NCBI GenBank assembly: GCA_903878285.1
Contig: CAIRHB010000016.1
Location: 1 to 33,918, forward strand
DNA from: Candidatus Adlerbacteria bacterium
Lineage (GTDB): Bacteria > Patescibacteriota > Minisyncoccia > Phycocordibacterales > SBAW01
Length of the DNA: 33,918 nt
Direction of reading: 5' to 3'
The notes under the pieces were generated by a model. That model saw only the letters and a list, made by a program, of their open reading frames with translations. It was not told the origin of the DNA and did no database searches. The position numbers and the translations under genes are program-made. Positions 7,783 to 14,471 of the stretch are shown here, in pieces (positions within the stretch are counted from its first letter, which is position 1; each line of letters starts with the position of its first letter).

Positions 7783-7788
7783 ATGCAC

Positions 7789-9516
7789 ATGCAACAGGAG
7801 ATTACTGCCGCAATCCAAAAAGCCCTTGCTGTGCTTGATCTGCCCAAGGTCTCTTTTACGGTTGAGCGGCCGGCAGAGTTGCTGCATGGCGATTATTACA
7901 CCAATGTGGCGATGGTTGTATTTCGAAAGCTTGCTGCCGCTGTGGATTCACATGCGGATGAAATCCATTGGGCTGGTAAGTGGAAGAATCCGCATGAACT
8001 CGCGCAGCATCTGAAAAAAGAATTGCACGGCAAAATCGATGGTGTCGAAAAAATCGAAGTCGCAGGCCCCGGCTTTATCAACTTCTATCTGTCGCGCGAC
8101 GCAATCGTTTCCGAGATACAAAAAGCAGCAACCGATGCGTCGTGGGGTAGCAACTCGCTCCAGCGGGATAAGACGGTGATGGTGGAGTATACGCAGCCAA
8201 ATCCATTCAAGCCATTTCATATCGGGCACTTGATGAGCAACACGTTTGGTGAGTCGTTGGTGCGTTTGTTGCGAAATGCGAACGCAAAAGTGATACCAGT
8301 CAATTACCAAGGCGATGTTGGTTTGCATATTGCAAAAGCGATTTGGGGTTTGCAAAAGAAAGGATATGATGCCAGTGATGTGTTAGAAATCGGCGAAGCA
8401 TACGTGTTTGGCAATACTGCTTACGAAGATGATGTTGATGCAAAAACAGAAATTATCACTATCAACAAGCAGGTGTACGCGCAAGATCCAGCAATCATGC
8501 CGCTGTATACTCGTGGTCGTGCAGTGACACTTGCGCGATTCGAAGAGATTTACGCGATGCTCGGTACGCATTTTGAACACTACTTTTTTGAAAGCGAGGT
8601 GTGGAAGGTGGGCGAGCAGTTGGTCCGCGACGGTTTGCAAAAAGGTGTGTTCGAGGAGAGCGAGGGTGCGATTGTGTTTCGTGGTGAGAAAGCTGGGCTG
8701 CATACACGCGTGTTTATCACCAAAGAAGGATTGCCGACGTATGATGCAAAAGATCTGGGGCTCGCGATGGCGAAGCTTGCGTATGCGTCGTTTGATTTGT
8801 CTATCACAGTGACCGCTACTGAACAGGGAGAATATTTTAAAGTGGTGTTTGAAGCGCTTGCCGAGCTGCGACCCGAGCTGCGTGGGAAATTTATCCGCGT
8901 GACACACGGGCTACTCAAACTCACGACCGGCAAGATGTCGTCGCGCAAAGGGAATGTGATTACGGGCGAGTCGCTCTTGCTGGATTTGAAAGAGGCAGCG
9001 AAGGAGAAGATGCAGGGGCGCGAGTTGCCTGACGCAGACAAGGTTGCCGAGCAGGTCGCGGTGGGCGCGATTAAGTACGCGGTGCTCAAGCAGGGGAGCG
9101 GCAAGGATATCATTTTTGATCCAGAAAAATCGCTGTCGCTCGAGGGTGACTCGGGGCCGTACTTGCAGTACGCGCTGGTGCGTGCGCGGTCGCTGATTAA
9201 AAAAGCGGAAGAGGCAAACGTGTCCGACGCAGTGATTGATCTTTCTGATATCGCGGAGTTTGTTGCTGCGCTTACCCTTGATCGCGTTCTGATTCATTTT
9301 CCAGAAGTGGTCGAGCACGCTGTGCAAGAACTCGAGCCGCACTACGTTACGACGTACCTCACTGAGCTCGCTGCCGCGTTCAACTCGTGGTATGCAAACA
9401 CGCGCGTCATCGGCGGCGAATATCCATCCTACGCGCTCACCCTCGCCCGCGCGTTTGAGCACACGATGTCCCGCGGCCTCGCCCTCCTCGGCATCCCCGC
9501 GCCAGAGGAGATGTAA
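7789..9516 (+). CDS. argS: Arginyl-tRNA synthetase
   Basis: VEYTQPNPFKPFHIGHLMSNTFGESLVRLLR...VNYQGDVGLHIAKAIWG, KMSSRKGNVI. Second ATG (7789) preferred from promoter spacing. Confidence 0.95.
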   Translation: MQQEITAAIQKALAVLDLPKVSFTVERPAELLHGDYYTNVAMVVFRKLAAAVDSHADEIHWAGKWKNPHELAQHLKKELHGKIDGVEKIEVAGPGFINFYLSRDAIVSEIQKAATDASWGSNSLQRDKTVMVEYTQPNPFKPFHIGHLMSNTFGESLVRLLRNANAKVIPVNYQGDVGLHIAKAIWGLQKKGYDASDVLEIGEAYVFGNTAYEDDVDAKTEIITINKQVYAQDPAIMPLYTRGRAVTLARFEEIYAMLGTHFEHYFFESEVWKVGEQLVRDGLQKGVFEESEGAIVFRGEKAGLHTRVFITKEGLPTYDAKDLGLAMAKLAYASFDLSITVTATEQGEYFKVVFEALAELRPELRGKFIRVTHGLLKLTTGKMSSRKGNVITGESLLLDLKEAAKEKMQGRELPDADKVAEQVAVGAIKYAVLKQGSGKDIIFDPEKSLSLEGDSGPYLQYALVRARSLIKKAEEANVSDAVIDLSDIAEFVAALTLDRVLIHFPEVVEHAVQELEPHYVTTYLTELAAAFNSWYANTRVIGGEYPSYALTLARAFEHTMSRGLALLGIPAPEEM

Positions 9517-9559: not shown

Positions 9560-10120
9560 TTATGCCCTGACTTCTTCGCGCTTGTCGCGAACTTTTATGT
9601 ACGCGACCGCCGCATGCTCAGCGCAGTACGGCTTGCCTGGGATGGTATTGCCGTCGCAGAAGCGGAAGTTGGGTGTGCCGGGATCACCCAAAGGCCAGAG
9701 GCAGGCGTGTGTTCGGAACGTTCTCGCTTGTGCTGCGGGAGTCGGAGTTTCTAATTGTGGCGCGGTGGGGCATGTGTCGCTGGAGTTTTTTTCCACGAGT
9801 CTTTTTCTGACAGTATCGATGTGTACACGGGCAGCCCGTGCTACTTCGGCTGGGCGATGACCTATCGCCAAAAGTGCACGAACTTGTTTCTCTTTCTCGT
9901 CATCCAATTTCCTTTGCTGAAATTCTGGACGCGCGGGTAGATTCAGTCGATGTGCTTTGCCAACCACGGCGTCTTTCGAAATACCCATCCGCCGACCAAT
10001 GTTTGGCGTGGAAAGAAGTCTTCCTGTCTCGTCTACCGTGCTCCATAATTCTCTGAGAAGAGCGATGGTTTCGTCATTCCAGTCAACTATATTTCTCGGC
10101 ATGCCGTGAATACTCCCCAT
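9560..10120 (-). CDS. GcrA-like regulator
   Basis: N-term WNDETIALLRELW...RRMGISKDAVVGKAHRLNLPAR; C-term CLWPLGDPGTPNFRFCDGNTIPGKPYCAEHAAVAY; both match GcrA family blocks. An extra HTH-like segment (AIGHRPAEVARAARVHIDTVRKRL) lies between. Start could be 10102. Confidence 0.75.
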   Translation of the reverse strand: MGSIHGMPRNIVDWNDETIALLRELWSTVDETGRLLSTPNIGRRMGISKDAVVGKAHRLNLPARPEFQQRKLDDEKEKQVRALLAIGHRPAEVARAARVHIDTVRKRLVEKNSSDTCPTAPQLETPTPAAQARTFRTHACLWPLGDPGTPNFRFCDGNTIPGKPYCAEHAAVAYIKVRDKREEVRA

Positions 10121-10240
10121 TTCTGTTAGAGTCTTCCAAGACGTCTCGTGCGGGACTGCTGCAGCAGAACTGTAACTGGCTGCAGCATACCTGAAAATCG
10201 TATGAAAAGTCCACTGCTATCACCAAACAGTGTTATCTGG

Positions 10241-10246
10241 TATAGT
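10241..10246 (+). promoter_or_regulatory. Extended -10 (TGG TATAGT) of ileS
   Basis: Exactly 6 nt upstream of ATG 10253. Confidence 0.6.
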
Positions 10247-10252
10247 TCTTTC

Positions 10253-13200
10253 ATGGACAGCAAGACGGAGGGTGGGGAAGAATTGAATCCAGTGGTGCAG
10301 AAGCCAAAAGGTGCGTTTGCACTGCGCGAGGAGGAGGTGTTGGACTTTTGGAACAAGGAGAAGATTTTTGAAAAGACGCTGGAGAAGAAGGCACCCAAAG
10401 GCGAGTATGTGTTTTATGACGGCCCGCCGTTTGCGACTGGCTTGCCACACTACGGCCACCTACTCCAGAGCGCGCTCAAGGACGCGATCCCGCGCTACAA
10501 GACGATGCAAGGCTACCGTGTGTCACGACAGTGGGGGTGGGATTGCCATGGCCTGCCACTCGAGAATCAGATCGAGCAGGAGCTGGGATTTAAAACCAAG
10601 CGTGACATCGAGCAGTATGGGATCGAGAAGTTTAATGCTGCGGCAAAGAATGCCGTGCTGCGCTACGCTGCCGACTGGCGACGCATCATCCCGCGCGTTG
10701 GGCGCTGGGCGGACATGGAGCACGACTACAAGACGATGGACGCAACCTACACCGAGTCGGTCTGGTGGGCGTTTAAGACACTCTACGACAAAGGGCTGAT
10801 TTATGAAGGGTTTAAAGCGATGCACCTGTGTCCGCGCTGCGGGACGACGCTGTCGAACTTCGAGGTCGCGCAGGGCTATCAAGATATCGACGACCACGCG
10901 GTGACGGTCAAACTGCCGCTCGTTGATGAGCCAGAGACAGCACTGCTCATTTGGACAACGACGCCGTGGACATTGCCGGGCAACTCGGCTGCTGCGGTCA
11001 ACGCAGGTGCAACCTATGTCAAAGTGCGCACCGACGAGGGCTTTGTGATTGTTGCCAAAGAACTGATGCGCAAGGTGCTCGGCGAACATGCGCAGGTATT
11101 TGGCGAAATCCTTGGCAAGGAGTTGGTCGGGCAGCGCTACGAGCCGCCGTTTGCTTATTTCAAAGATCTGGTACACAAGCACAAAACGCATGCATGGAAG
11201 GTGTATGCGGCGCCGTATGTCACGCTCGAGGATGGCACCGGCATTGTCCACCTCGCACCCGCCTACGGCGCCGAGGATTTGGAATTGGCACAAAAAGAAA
11301 AGATTCCGCTCATCCACCACGTCACCGATGACGGCAAGTTTGTCGCCGCGGTCACCGATTTCGCGGGGCTGCCAGTCAAGCCGAAAGGTCGACATATGGA
11401 GACCGATGTGAAGGTGATCGAACTCCTACGCGCAAAAGGGCTGCTCTTTAAAGATGAAAAGATCAAGCACTCCTACCCGCACTGCTGGCGCTGCGACACG
11501 CCGCTGCTCAACTGGGCTGCCAACTCCTGGTTTGTCAAAGTGTCGGCACTGAAGTCGCAACTCTTGCGAGAGAATAAAAAAGTAACGTGGGTGCCAGGCC
11601 ACGTGGGGCAGGGGCGCTTCGCGAAGCTAATCGAGAGCGCGCCAGACTGGGCAATCTCACGCAGCCGCTATTGGGGCGCGCCGATTCCTGTCTGGCGACA
11701 CTCCAAAACAAAAGAGATCAAAGTGATCGGCTCGGTCGCCGACCTGCTCCCTTTGGTGCGCCGCTCGGGCAACCGCTACTTCGTGATGCGCCACGGCGAG
11801 GCAGAGCAAAACACGCTCGGCATCATCAGCTCGAGTATTGAGAAGCAGTACGCACTCACCGAAAAGGGGAGGGACGTGGCACGTGAGGCGGCAGAGAAAT
11901 TAAAAGCAGCTGGCACCAAGATCGATATGATCTGCGTCTCGCCACTCTTGCGCACACAGCAAACCGCAAAAATCGCAGCTGACATTCTTGGTGTTTCGCC
12001 GGACAGAATTTTCGTTGATGAGCGTTTGCGCGAGATGATCTTCGGCGAACTTGAGGAGCATACAGTAGCAGAACATAAAGCGCTCTACAGCAACTCCGCT
12101 GAAACACTCTCAGATAAACCAGAAGGAGGTGAAAGTGCGATGGAGGTCAAGCGTCGTGTTGGTGCATTTCTATTCGAGTTGGAGTCTCGATACCCAAATA
12201 AAAATATTCTGATTGTTTCGCATGGCAACCCGCTATGGATGCTTGCGGCAGCTGCCGATGGTGCTACAAAAGAGCGTACGTGGGAGTTGTACAAAACCGC
12301 CTACCCACACAAAGGGCGTATCACCGAGTTGCCCTTCGCGCCGTACCCGCACAACGACGACTACGAGCTCGACCTGCACCGCCCGTACATCGACGACCTC
12401 TCGCTTGGCAACTCGATCGCGGGCGAGTGGCAGCGCGTGCCCGACGTCTTCGACTGCTGGTTCGAGTCGGGCTCGATGCCCTTTGCGTCGCATCACTATC
12501 CGTTCGACAAGACGGTGTTTAATCCCAAACGTTTCCTCGGCCTCTTTCCGAAAGGGTTTCCCGCTGGGTTTATCGCCGAGGGGATTGATCAAACCCGTGG
12601 CTGGTTTTACTCGATGATCGTGCTCGGGGTGGGGCTGTTTGGCCACACGCCCTACAAGGCGGTCGTGACCAACGGCATGATACTCGCCGAGGACGGCCGC
12701 AAGATGAGCAAAAAGCTCAAGAACTATCCCGACCCGATGGACGTGGTCGACCAGTTTGGCGCGGATGCGCTGCGCTACTATATCCTCTCGTCGCCTGTGA
12801 TTCGCGGCGAGGACTTACGCTTTGCGGCACGCGGTGTCGAGGAGGTATCTAAAAAATTGCTGATGCGTCTTGATAACGTGCGGAGTTTTTATGATTTGTA
12901 CGCACCTGCGCAGCAACCAACCGATGTCGCGTCGCCGGAAACTCTCTCGCAAAAGTCCTCAGCGGCTCCCAGACTATTTGCTCGAGAGTTATCGGCTTCG
13001 CTTTCGATACATCCGCTCGACCGCTGGATTCTTTCGCGACTCAATGAGTTGGTGCGCGATGCGACACAGGGCTACGAGACGTACGAGCTCGACCTCGCGA
13101 CGCGGCCGCTGGCAGGATTCATTGACGACCTCTCGACCTGGTACCTGCGCCGATCGCGCGACCGGTTTAAAACTGACAGCGCTGCTCCCGCTTCGCATCT

Positions 13201-13921
13201 GGCAGATAAAGATGCTGCGCTCGCGACACTGCGCCAGGTGCTACTGACGGTGTCGAAAGTGATGGCACCGGCGATGCCGTTCTTTGCCGACGACCTCTAC
13301 CGCCGACTGCGCGCCGAGAGTGACCCCGAGAGCGTGCACCTCGCCGACTGGCCAGTGGCGGGCGCAATCGACACAGCACTGCTTGCCGACATGCAGCGCG
13401 TGCGCGATATCTCGTCGCGCGGGCTCGAGCTGCGCGAAAAGGCGGGGATCAAAATCCGCCAACCGCTCGCCTCGCTTGCGGCAACATCCCTCCCCATCGA
13501 CCCAGCGTTGCACCAAATCATCGCCGATGAGTTGAATGTAAAACAGGTGATCGAAGCGACTCCAGTTGTATCAGATGTGCAAACCGCTGGCGGTATACAG
13601 ACCGATGATGTGTTGCTCAACATCGAGCTTACGCCTGAACTGCGCGAAGAGGGTTTGGTACGCGAACTTGTCCGTGCCGTGCAAGATGTGCGCAAGAAGA
13701 CAGGGCTCGTCATCGCCGATCATCCCACTGTGTATATCTACACCAACGCCGGGGGTAGCACCTTCTTCCAAAAAAACGCGTCGCAGATCGAGAGTCAGAC
13801 GAACGCATCTCTCGTAATCGAGCAGGGCGATGTATCCGAAGCCGTTGACGCTATCGACGGGTTGCCATTTCCACTCATGCTTTCTGTGAAGGGAGATCAT
13901 GCATCAGATCACAACAACTGA
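10253..13921 (+). CDS. ileS: Isoleucyl-tRNA synthetase with internal histidine-phosphatase domain
   Basis: GLPHYGHLL (HIGH), LIWTTTPWTLPGN, SRSRYWGAPIPVW, EDGRKMSKKLKNYPDP (KMSKS), LDRWILSRLNEL. Start moved to M36 of the ORF because of the promoter. Confidence 0.95.
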   Translation: MDSKTEGGEELNPVVQKPKGAFALREEEVLDFWNKEKIFEKTLEKKAPKGEYVFYDGPPFATGLPHYGHLLQSALKDAIPRYKTMQGYRVSRQWGWDCHGLPLENQIEQELGFKTKRDIEQYGIEKFNAAAKNAVLRYAADWRRIIPRVGRWADMEHDYKTMDATYTESVWWAFKTLYDKGLIYEGFKAMHLCPRCGTTLSNFEVAQGYQDIDDHAVTVKLPLVDEPETALLIWTTTPWTLPGNSAAAVNAGATYVKVRTDEGFVIVAKELMRKVLGEHAQVFGEILGKELVGQRYEPPFAYFKDLVHKHKTHAWKVYAAPYVTLEDGTGIVHLAPAYGAEDLELAQKEKIPLIHHVTDDGKFVAAVTDFAGLPVKPKGRHMETDVKVIELLRAKGLLFKDEKIKHSYPHCWRCDTPLLNWAANSWFVKVSALKSQLLRENKKVTWVPGHVGQGRFAKLIESAPDWAISRSRYWGAPIPVWRHSKTKEIKVIGSVADLLPLVRRSGNRYFVMRHGEAEQNTLGIISSSIEKQYALTEKGRDVAREAAEKLKAAGTKIDMICVSPLLRTQQTAKIAADILGVSPDRIFVDERLREMIFGELEEHTVAEHKALYSNSAETLSDKPEGGESAMEVKRRVGAFLFELESRYPNKNILIVSHGNPLWMLAAAADGATKERTWELYKTAYPHKGRITELPFAPYPHNDDYELDLHRPYIDDLSLGNSIAGEWQRVPDVFDCWFESGSMPFASHHYPFDKTVFNPKRFLGLFPKGFPAGFIAEGIDQTRGWFYSMIVLGVGLFGHTPYKAVVTNGMILAEDGRKMSKKLKNYPDPMDVVDQFGADALRYYILSSPVIRGEDLRFAARGVEEVSKKLLMRLDNVRSFYDLYAPAQQPTDVASPETLSQKSSAAPRLFARELSASLSIHPLDRWILSRLNELVRDATQGYETYELDLATRPLAGFIDDLSTWYLRRSRDRFKTDSAAPASHLADKDAALATLRQVLLTVSKVMAPAMPFFADDLYRRLRAESDPESVHLADWPVAGAIDTALLADMQRVRDISSRGLELREKAGIKIRQPLASLAATSLPIDPALHQIIADELNVKQVIEATPVVSDVQTAGGIQTDDVLLNIELTPELREEGLVRELVRAVQDVRKKTGLVIADHPTVYIYTNAGGSTFFQKNASQIESQTNASLVIEQGDVSEAVDAIDGLPFPLMLSVKGDHASDHNN
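11760..12350 (+). other. Histidine phosphatase (phosphoglycerate mutase-like) domain inserted in IleRS
   Basis: YFVMRHGEAEQNTLG, SPLLRTQQTAKIAADIL, DERLREMIFGELEEHT, GGESAMEVKRRV, ILIVSHGNPLWML: all catalytic blocks retained, in frame. Confidence 0.92.
12929..13001. repeat. In-frame palindromic element inside ileS
   Basis: gcgtcgccggaaactctctcgcaaaagtc ... gactatttgctcgagagttatcggcttcgc forms a stem of about 24 paired positions with a ~14-nt loop. Confidence 0.7.
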
Positions 13922-14471
13922 CGCGCTCGTCTTGGGCAAGCGTGGGGTAGGGGAGGCGAATGTGCTTGTATCACTCCTCACGCGCGACTTGGGGCTCCTG
14001 CGCGTGTCGGCGCGCTCGGCGCGGCTTGATGTGTCGAAGTTGCGCTATGGGCTCGAGCCGCTCACTCGCGCGCGGTACTCGATGGTGCGCGGCAGACATG
14101 AGTGGAAGTTGACCGGCGTCGCTATGCCGAGGCGATTGCCACCTACTACCTCGCGCGAGCAGCGGCAGGCGGCGGGTCGCATCGCGCGACTCCTGCTACG
14201 GCTGATCCACGGCGAGGAGCCAGTGCCCGATCTGTACGCGACCGTTGTTGCTGGTCTTGATGCGCTCCTATCAATATCCGAGATAGAGAGTGTTGAGTGT
14301 GTGCTCGTATTGCGCATCCTCTCGCAGCTCGGCTATGTGTCCGACACCGCTGAGGCACAGCCATTTCTTGTGTCGACCGCGTTTACTCCCGAAGTGCTCG
14401 CGGCCGCTACGGCATCCCGCCTCCCCCTGGTCCACATCATCAATGCCTCAATCGCTGTTACAGGACTCTGA
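13899..14471 (+). CDS. recO: DNA repair protein RecO (short form)
   Basis: TTDALVLGKRGVGEANVLVSLLTRDLGLLRVSARSARLDVSKLRYGLEPLTRARYSMVRGR; overlaps the ileS 3' end. Confidence 0.8.
   Translation: MHQITTTDALVLGKRGVGEANVLVSLLTRDLGLLRVSARSARLDVSKLRYGLEPLTRARYSMVRGRHEWKLTGVAMPRRLPPTTSREQRQAAGRIARLLLRLIHGEEPVPDLYATVVAGLDALLSISEIESVECVLVLRILSQLGYVSDTAEAQPFLVSTAFTPEVLAAATASRLPLVHIINASIAVTGL

Follow-up and report, generated by a model that had tools for sequence, protein, structure and literature searches.

A histidine phosphatase domain embedded in the isoleucyl-tRNA synthetase of an Adlerbacteria genome and of related Patescibacteria

The ileS locus and its synthetase

The window analyzed here, that is, the whole stretch of 33,918 nucleotides from the forward strand of contig CAIRHB010000016.1 of a Candidatus Adlerbacteria bacterium (GCA_903878285.1), contains an ileS gene in a single open frame spanning 10148-13921 (Table 1). 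The mechanically assigned start is GTG 10148, ATG 10253 being likelier and giving a product of 1222 residues. This frame matches the class I isoleucyl-tRNA synthetase (IleRS) model TIGR00392 (3e-261, 869 bits versus a cut-off of 621), the match being split in two by a His_Phos_1 domain, in line with a preliminary description of this DNA that proposed a complete histidine phosphatase (HP) domain splitting the synthetase in frame.

Pfam matches in the product include tRNA-synt_1, Anticodon_1, and DUF5915, and its best fold match is the IleRS2 of P. megaterium (8c8v), the top matches being type-2 IleRS structures. The HIGH and KMSKS signatures, the CP1 editing residues, the anticodon-binding domain, and DUF5915 are all found, and the parts that the same description had regarded as intact on both sides of the insert could be located as HYGH, TTT/Asp, and KMSKK. 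A 77-row alignment of complete proteins shows no variation at editing residues T223-225 and D330 or at the KMSKS lysines. A second complete ileS was not found in the genome of the window (0.93 Mb, 97.6% complete). The synthetase body is, by every test made, an ordinary type-2 IleRS.

Table 1. Genes, domains, and signature residues at the ileS locus (window positions).
Feature	Position	Strand	Basis or remark
argS, upstream neighbor	7783..9513	+	
GcrA cell cycle regulator	9560-10120	-	PF07750, 3.3e-25; between argS and ileS
ileS, type-2 (eukaryote-like) IleRS with embedded HP	10253..13918	+	TIGR00392 (two pieces), Pfam, fold match
HIGH signature (HYGH)	10448..10459	+	
Editing-domain TTT (from TTTPWT)	10955..10963	+	invariant, 77/77
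Editing-domain Asp in GTGIVHLAPAYGAED	11276..11278	+	invariant, 77/77
Inserted segment, about 205 aa	11756..12370	+	absent from uninterrupted relatives and solved IleRS
His_Phos_1 domain match	11780..12289 (aa 510-679)	+	Pfam PF00300, 1.3e-34, 120 bits versus gathering threshold of 21.7
RHG, catalytic Arg and phospho-accepting His	11789..11797	+	invariant
Second phosphate-binding Arg (LRTQQTA)	11951..11953	+	invariant
Acid/base Glu (LREM)	12032..12034	+	invariant in 85 main-lineage inserts
Second catalytic His (SHG)	12221..12223	+	invariant in IleRS-borne copies
KMSKS signature (KMSKK)	12701..12715	+	
recO	13899..14468	+	overlaps ileS end; conserved neighbor

The GcrA family, a member of which is encoded between argS and ileS, is mainly alphaproteobacterial. 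A GcrA homolog with 43% identity also lies upstream of ileS in the nearest relative (L008, 3840-4364).

The inserted phosphatase domain

The insert is flanked by GSVADLLPL and DLHRPYID and occupies a loop past the CP1 editing domain, between the SRSRYWGAPIP strand and the DLHRP...DCWFESG strand of the Rossmann fold; at this point the alignment to yeast IleRS (8wnd) jumps from residue 491 to 499. Besides clearing the PF00300 gathering threshold (Table 1), it presents the RHG, Arg, Glu, and second His blocks where the preliminary description had placed them. The corresponding residues R501, H502, G503, R555, E582, and H645 are invariant in the 77-row alignment, and none of the 85 main-lineage inserts or of the five free copies encoded beside ileS has lost any of the RH/R/E/H set, with most surface positions of the insert varying while the catalytic residues stay fixed. 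Judged from its sequence, the insert is a complete branch-1 HP domain, and such conservation indicates that it is probably catalytically active.

None of the cut-offs of named HP equivalogs is reached by the insert, its scores being 73.6 versus 162.9 for CobC, 90.8 versus 225 for dPGM_arch, 61 versus 350 for PspA, and 49.8 versus 74.5 for SixA. The latter value bears on a protein-regulatory role, in which the HP would dephosphorylate phosphohistidine or phosphoserine on IleRS or on a partner, tuning charging. Such activities have counterparts, since HPs of the sort of E. coli SixA are reported to act on protein phosphohistidine (PMC12934123) and mycobacterial MutT1, a two-domain Nudix protein, is reported to dephosphorylate nucleoside diphosphate kinase via its Nudix domain (PMC11784022). 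Nonetheless, with the SixA model missed and no kinase partner linked to the ileS locus, we regard this role as improbable, and the reading developed below is that of a phosphatase serving the charging reaction itself.

Distribution, base composition, and selection

Genomes of bacteria and archaea were scanned, giving 150 loci, 80 of which were kept; all 80 have an HP at the same place of a long IleRS frame. The named carriers are Patescibacteria, including Adlerbacteria, Nomurabacteria, Kaiserbacteria, Lloydbacteria, Campbellbacteria, Zambryskibacteria, and one Berkelbacteria, among others. When genomes were sampled evenly across the class to which the window belongs, the TIGR00392 match broke at about model position 500-510 in about 47 of 71, and 19 gave a continuous match; by PF00300, 38 of 55 genomes have an HP within a complete or fragmentary frame of IleRS size. 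Outside the class the architecture is sporadic, with 11 further HP-bearing IleRS in a 145-genome sample of the phylum. Several genomes (e.g., G304, G306, G310, G325, and G326) combine an uninterrupted ileS with no HP at all, suggesting that the activity is dispensable or replaceable.

Considering that (i) the insertion is shared by 80 independent records, none of the retrieved loci lacking it, (ii) it recurs in the 38 class genomes mentioned above, and (iii) the HP of the nearest relative is 93% identical, an assembly chimera or a recent horizontal acquisition in this genome alone can be dismissed with near certainty.

Base composition had been put forward as compatible with acquisition, on account of a lower GC content in the second half of the insert. 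The dip is real, with a GC content of 0.475-0.50 over about 11900-12300 and of 0.635 over 12300-12499, and GC3 values of 0.587 for the insert and 0.709 for the body. Nevertheless, the age implied by the class-wide distribution of the insert makes it no sign of recent acquisition, which finds no support either in the GC3 of the nearest relative (0.692 for the insert and 0.716 for the body) or in the spread within this very ileS, where GC3 of 603-nt windows goes from 0.567 to 0.786. Throughout the family the dip is mild (mean GC3 difference between insert and body of -0.046, with 61 of 77 genomes below zero). Comparison of the window with its nearest relative yields dN/dS ratios of 0.04 for the insert and 0.10 for the body, the former being rough because the dS of the insert (1.36) is near saturation; by this measure, the insert is under purifying selection.

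Separate phosphatase genes beside ileS

In five genomes with an uninterrupted ileS, an HP gene lies just upstream of it on the same strand, and in three of them both genes overlap. The HP gene runs 6-9 nt into the ileS frame in G321 and G299, with an overlap of 1 nt in G274, a genome reached via its HP, and the HP is 1.8 and 0.9 kb upstream of ileS in G338 and G318, respectively. Same-strand HPs less than 2 kb upstream are found in 4 of the 19 sampled class genomes with an uninterrupted IleRS; a simple binomial puts the probability of so many neighbors by chance at about 1e-8 to 7e-7. Three relatives display the order argS-HP-ileS-recO, their HP being encoded on its own (in G321 an HTH gene lies between argS and HP), and this order is matched by argS-[gcrA]-ileS(HP)-recO in the window. 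Moreover, when 33 free HPs are ordered by how closely they resemble the insert profile, the copies adjacent to ileS take places 1, 2, 3, 5, and 6. The conservation of a separate HP beside ileS in some relatives suggests a joint task of synthetase and phosphatase, so far undescribed, although genes of one operon may be expressed together with no chemistry in common. These separate genes also provide clean controls. In G318, a gene of the HD_4 family is situated between the free HP and ileS (L165:3542-4048).

When the insert was placed among free-standing phosphatases, as the preliminary description had suggested, the ileS-adjacent copies nested with the inserts, three within the main group of IleRS inserts and two next to an HP carried by an IleRS. 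On a quick tree of the IleRS body, the five cases with an adjacent HP are scattered, and 13 changes of the insert state are counted, no fewer than 7 of them on well-supported branches, a pattern to which transfer of whole ileS genes may contribute. With the ileS-adjacent copies included, the AU test rejects a single origin for the IleRS-borne HPs (p 0.0019) and likewise for synthetase-borne HPs as a whole (p 0.008). On the contrary, when these copies are omitted a single origin is not rejected (p 0.35 and 0.49), and multiple independent captures were consequently not retained as a conclusion. What stands, on the trees, is the placement of the free ileS-adjacent copies among the inserts.

Other synthetases and other cargo domains

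HP domains are also carried by ValRS, where, just like in IleRS, they follow the first half of the catalytic domain and precede the DxWFxS strand. They are rare there (L101, L103 with two, L104, L105, L106, L109, and L111), and some have damaged catalytic residues, as L101 and L106 (Glu to Asp and His to Ser in the latter). Two tandem HPs are present in the IleRS of one family (L099, L117, L118, L152, and L154). No HP was detected in LeuRS-sized frames of the 55 class genomes. Patescibacteria, known for their stripped-down genomes, thus equip IleRS and ValRS with additional enzymatic domains, phosphohydrolases among them.

Particular combinations include an IleRS with three HPs (L100:1667-6382, genome G243) and another with GNAT and HP domains (L102:2638-6990, genome G046), both having an HP after KMSKS and both encoded in genomes whose ValRS also contains an HP. 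One ValRS joins HAD-like, Ser_hydrolase, and HP domains in a single frame of 1277 aa (L109:1327-5157, genome G229). An IleRS from a genome without detected HP carries a NUDIX domain (aa 225-343) at a different insertion point (L175:4193-7780, genome G304). A strong HP match was also recorded in a 928-aa frame, by its size perhaps a ValRS (G327:C13:28892-29431), and a NUDIX match in a 912-aa open frame that is possibly another synthetase insertion (G008:C18:33661-33978). This last one is the single NUDIX-containing frame above 900 aa among the matches listed for the 145 phylum genomes, so NUDIX insertion looks rare and was discarded as a general pattern.

Such variety of cargo, namely NUDIX, GNAT, HAD, and Ser_hydrolase domains tolerated at various points of IleRS and ValRS, counts in favor of the main rival to a charging-related function. 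According to it, a general metabolic phosphatase, for instance a sugar-phosphate or phosphoserine-type HP, would simply ride in a loop that tolerates insertion, within an essential and well-expressed enzyme, its link to charging being co-expression only. The insert is the only HP detected in 21 of the 38 class genomes that carry it, so it could bear general HP duty, and its nearest relatives are broad-specificity HPs. The genome of the window itself has two further free HPs. On the contrary, the recurrence of the domain with IleRS (and ValRS) and with no other synthetase-sized frame in the 55 class genomes, barring the ValRS-sized one of 928 aa, together with the reappearance of free copies beside ileS in five separate lineages, speaks against mere lodging, and we rate such a scenario as a serious though minority possibility.

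Predicted structure of the whole protein

An AlphaFold model had been proposed as a check of the architecture, and both the whole protein and the HP are confidently predicted. Built with AlphaFold2 on the 77-row alignment, the model of 1118 residues reaches a pLDDT of 91.4 and a pTM of 0.88, and that of the HP alone a pLDDT of 92.2, the fold of the latter matching phosphoglycerate mutases, CobC, PspA-type, and riboflavin-pathway HPs. Since the pTM is above the ceiling of ~0.82 (918/1118) for a free-floating 200-residue domain, the orientation of the HP on IleRS is predicted to be fixed. This predicted rigidity speaks against a phosphatase that is only lodged in the loop.

A rigid placement would also be compatible with a structural or allosteric insert devoid of catalysis, like other insertions in aminoacyl-tRNA synthetases, an option that the preliminary description had left beside that of a phosphatase. 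However, the catalytic residues do not vary in any of the 85 main-lineage inserts while most surface positions do, and autonomous copies exist. This conservation, together with the separate HP genes next to ileS, speaks against a role that is only structural, which appears quite improbable, and thereby narrows the function of the insert.

A proposed coupling of the phosphatase to isoleucine charging

The complete fold, the invariant catalytic residues, the purifying selection, the confident placement, and the exchange between embedded and separate-gene states are all consistent with a working branch-1 HP, of the RH...R...E...H type and phosphohistidine mechanism, that would be permanently tethered to IleRS. 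Its host would be an otherwise normal IleRS, predicted to be editing-competent, with the HP sitting in the loop after the editing domain. Within the same cell, the HP would assist the charging of isoleucine, and sometimes of valine, most likely by dephosphorylating a nucleotide or a tRNA end that results from charging or would obstruct it, and embedding would set a 1:1 ratio and hold the phosphatase at the charging site. We lean, if only slightly, towards such an active and tethered phosphatase coupled to isoleucine (sometimes valine) charging. The presence of HPs in ValRS, and the 21 class genomes in which the insert is the sole HP detected, also speak for it, while the rarity and occasional decay of the ValRS copies, and the genomes with an uninterrupted ileS and no HP, weigh against it. 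The substrate step is a guess, with AMP or a related adenine nucleotide as first candidate, and any one named substrate class is unlikely to be the right one. About two thirds of the sampled class members combine an essential translation enzyme with a second, apparently active enzyme, which points to an unrecognized phosphatase step tied to isoleucine charging.

Among candidate substrates, (p)ppGpp or another RelA-type alarmone would make the HP quench a starvation signal at the synthetase. RelA_SpoT is present in 41 of the 55 class genomes, and the HD_4 gene between HP and ileS in G318 would fit this proposal. On the other hand, a RelA_SpoT domain was undetected in six genomes with an HP-bearing IleRS (G061, G075, G195, G290, G301, and G327), which makes (p)ppGpp unlikely as sole substrate, and alarmone quenching is in our view a very unlikely function.

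A broader version of the charging-coupled reading would regard IleRS and ValRS as docking frames for phosphohydrolases (HP, NUDIX, and HAD) that restore or protect chargeable tRNA, e.g., by clearing the CCA end of a 3'-phosphate, or of what a toxin-added 3'-pyrophosphate leaves behind, prior to charging. Toxins that pyrophosphorylate CCA ends exist and small alarmone hydrolases reverse them (PMC11559606). These toxins, together with the HD_4-type gene of G318, make a role at the tRNA 3' end attractive, but it is speculation and, as a general scheme, a long shot.

Relation to known enzymes

The protein belongs to a known kind, that of tRNA synthetases with an extra enzymatic domain, and for its phosphatase version no description was found in the open-access literature, nor did an NCBIfam model for an HP-bearing IleRS come up. 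With type-2 IleRS such as those of Priestia megaterium (IleRS2, 8c8v), yeast (8wnd), and T. thermophilus (1ile), which provide its best matches in fold and in sequence, it shares HIGH, the CP1 editing TTT and Asp, KMSKS, and the anticodon-binding domain, whereas these enzymes have few residues (7 in yeast 8wnd) where the window IleRS has the phosphatase of about 205 aa. With branch-1 HPs (CobC, PhoE, PspA-type, GpmB, archaeal-type dPGM, and the riboflavin HFP 9mmh), the insert shares the RHG, the second Arg, the Glu, the second His, and the alpha/beta fold. It differs from them in remaining below the named equivalog cut-offs, in being embedded in a synthetase, and in a conserved PHN...YELDLHRPYID exit that joins it to IleRS.

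An additional enzyme within IleRS is not without precedent, as the NCBIfam model NF040702 (ileS_w_GNAT) describes an IleRS with an N-acetyltransferase; the window enzyme scores 328 versus a cut-off of 1999 and has no GNAT match. The best-scoring named HP model for the insert is that of the bifunctional RNase H/acid phosphatase PRK07238 (94 versus a cut-off of 326), where an HP is likewise fused to an enzyme of nucleic-acid metabolism, end to end with RNase H in that case and by insertion into a synthetase in the present one.
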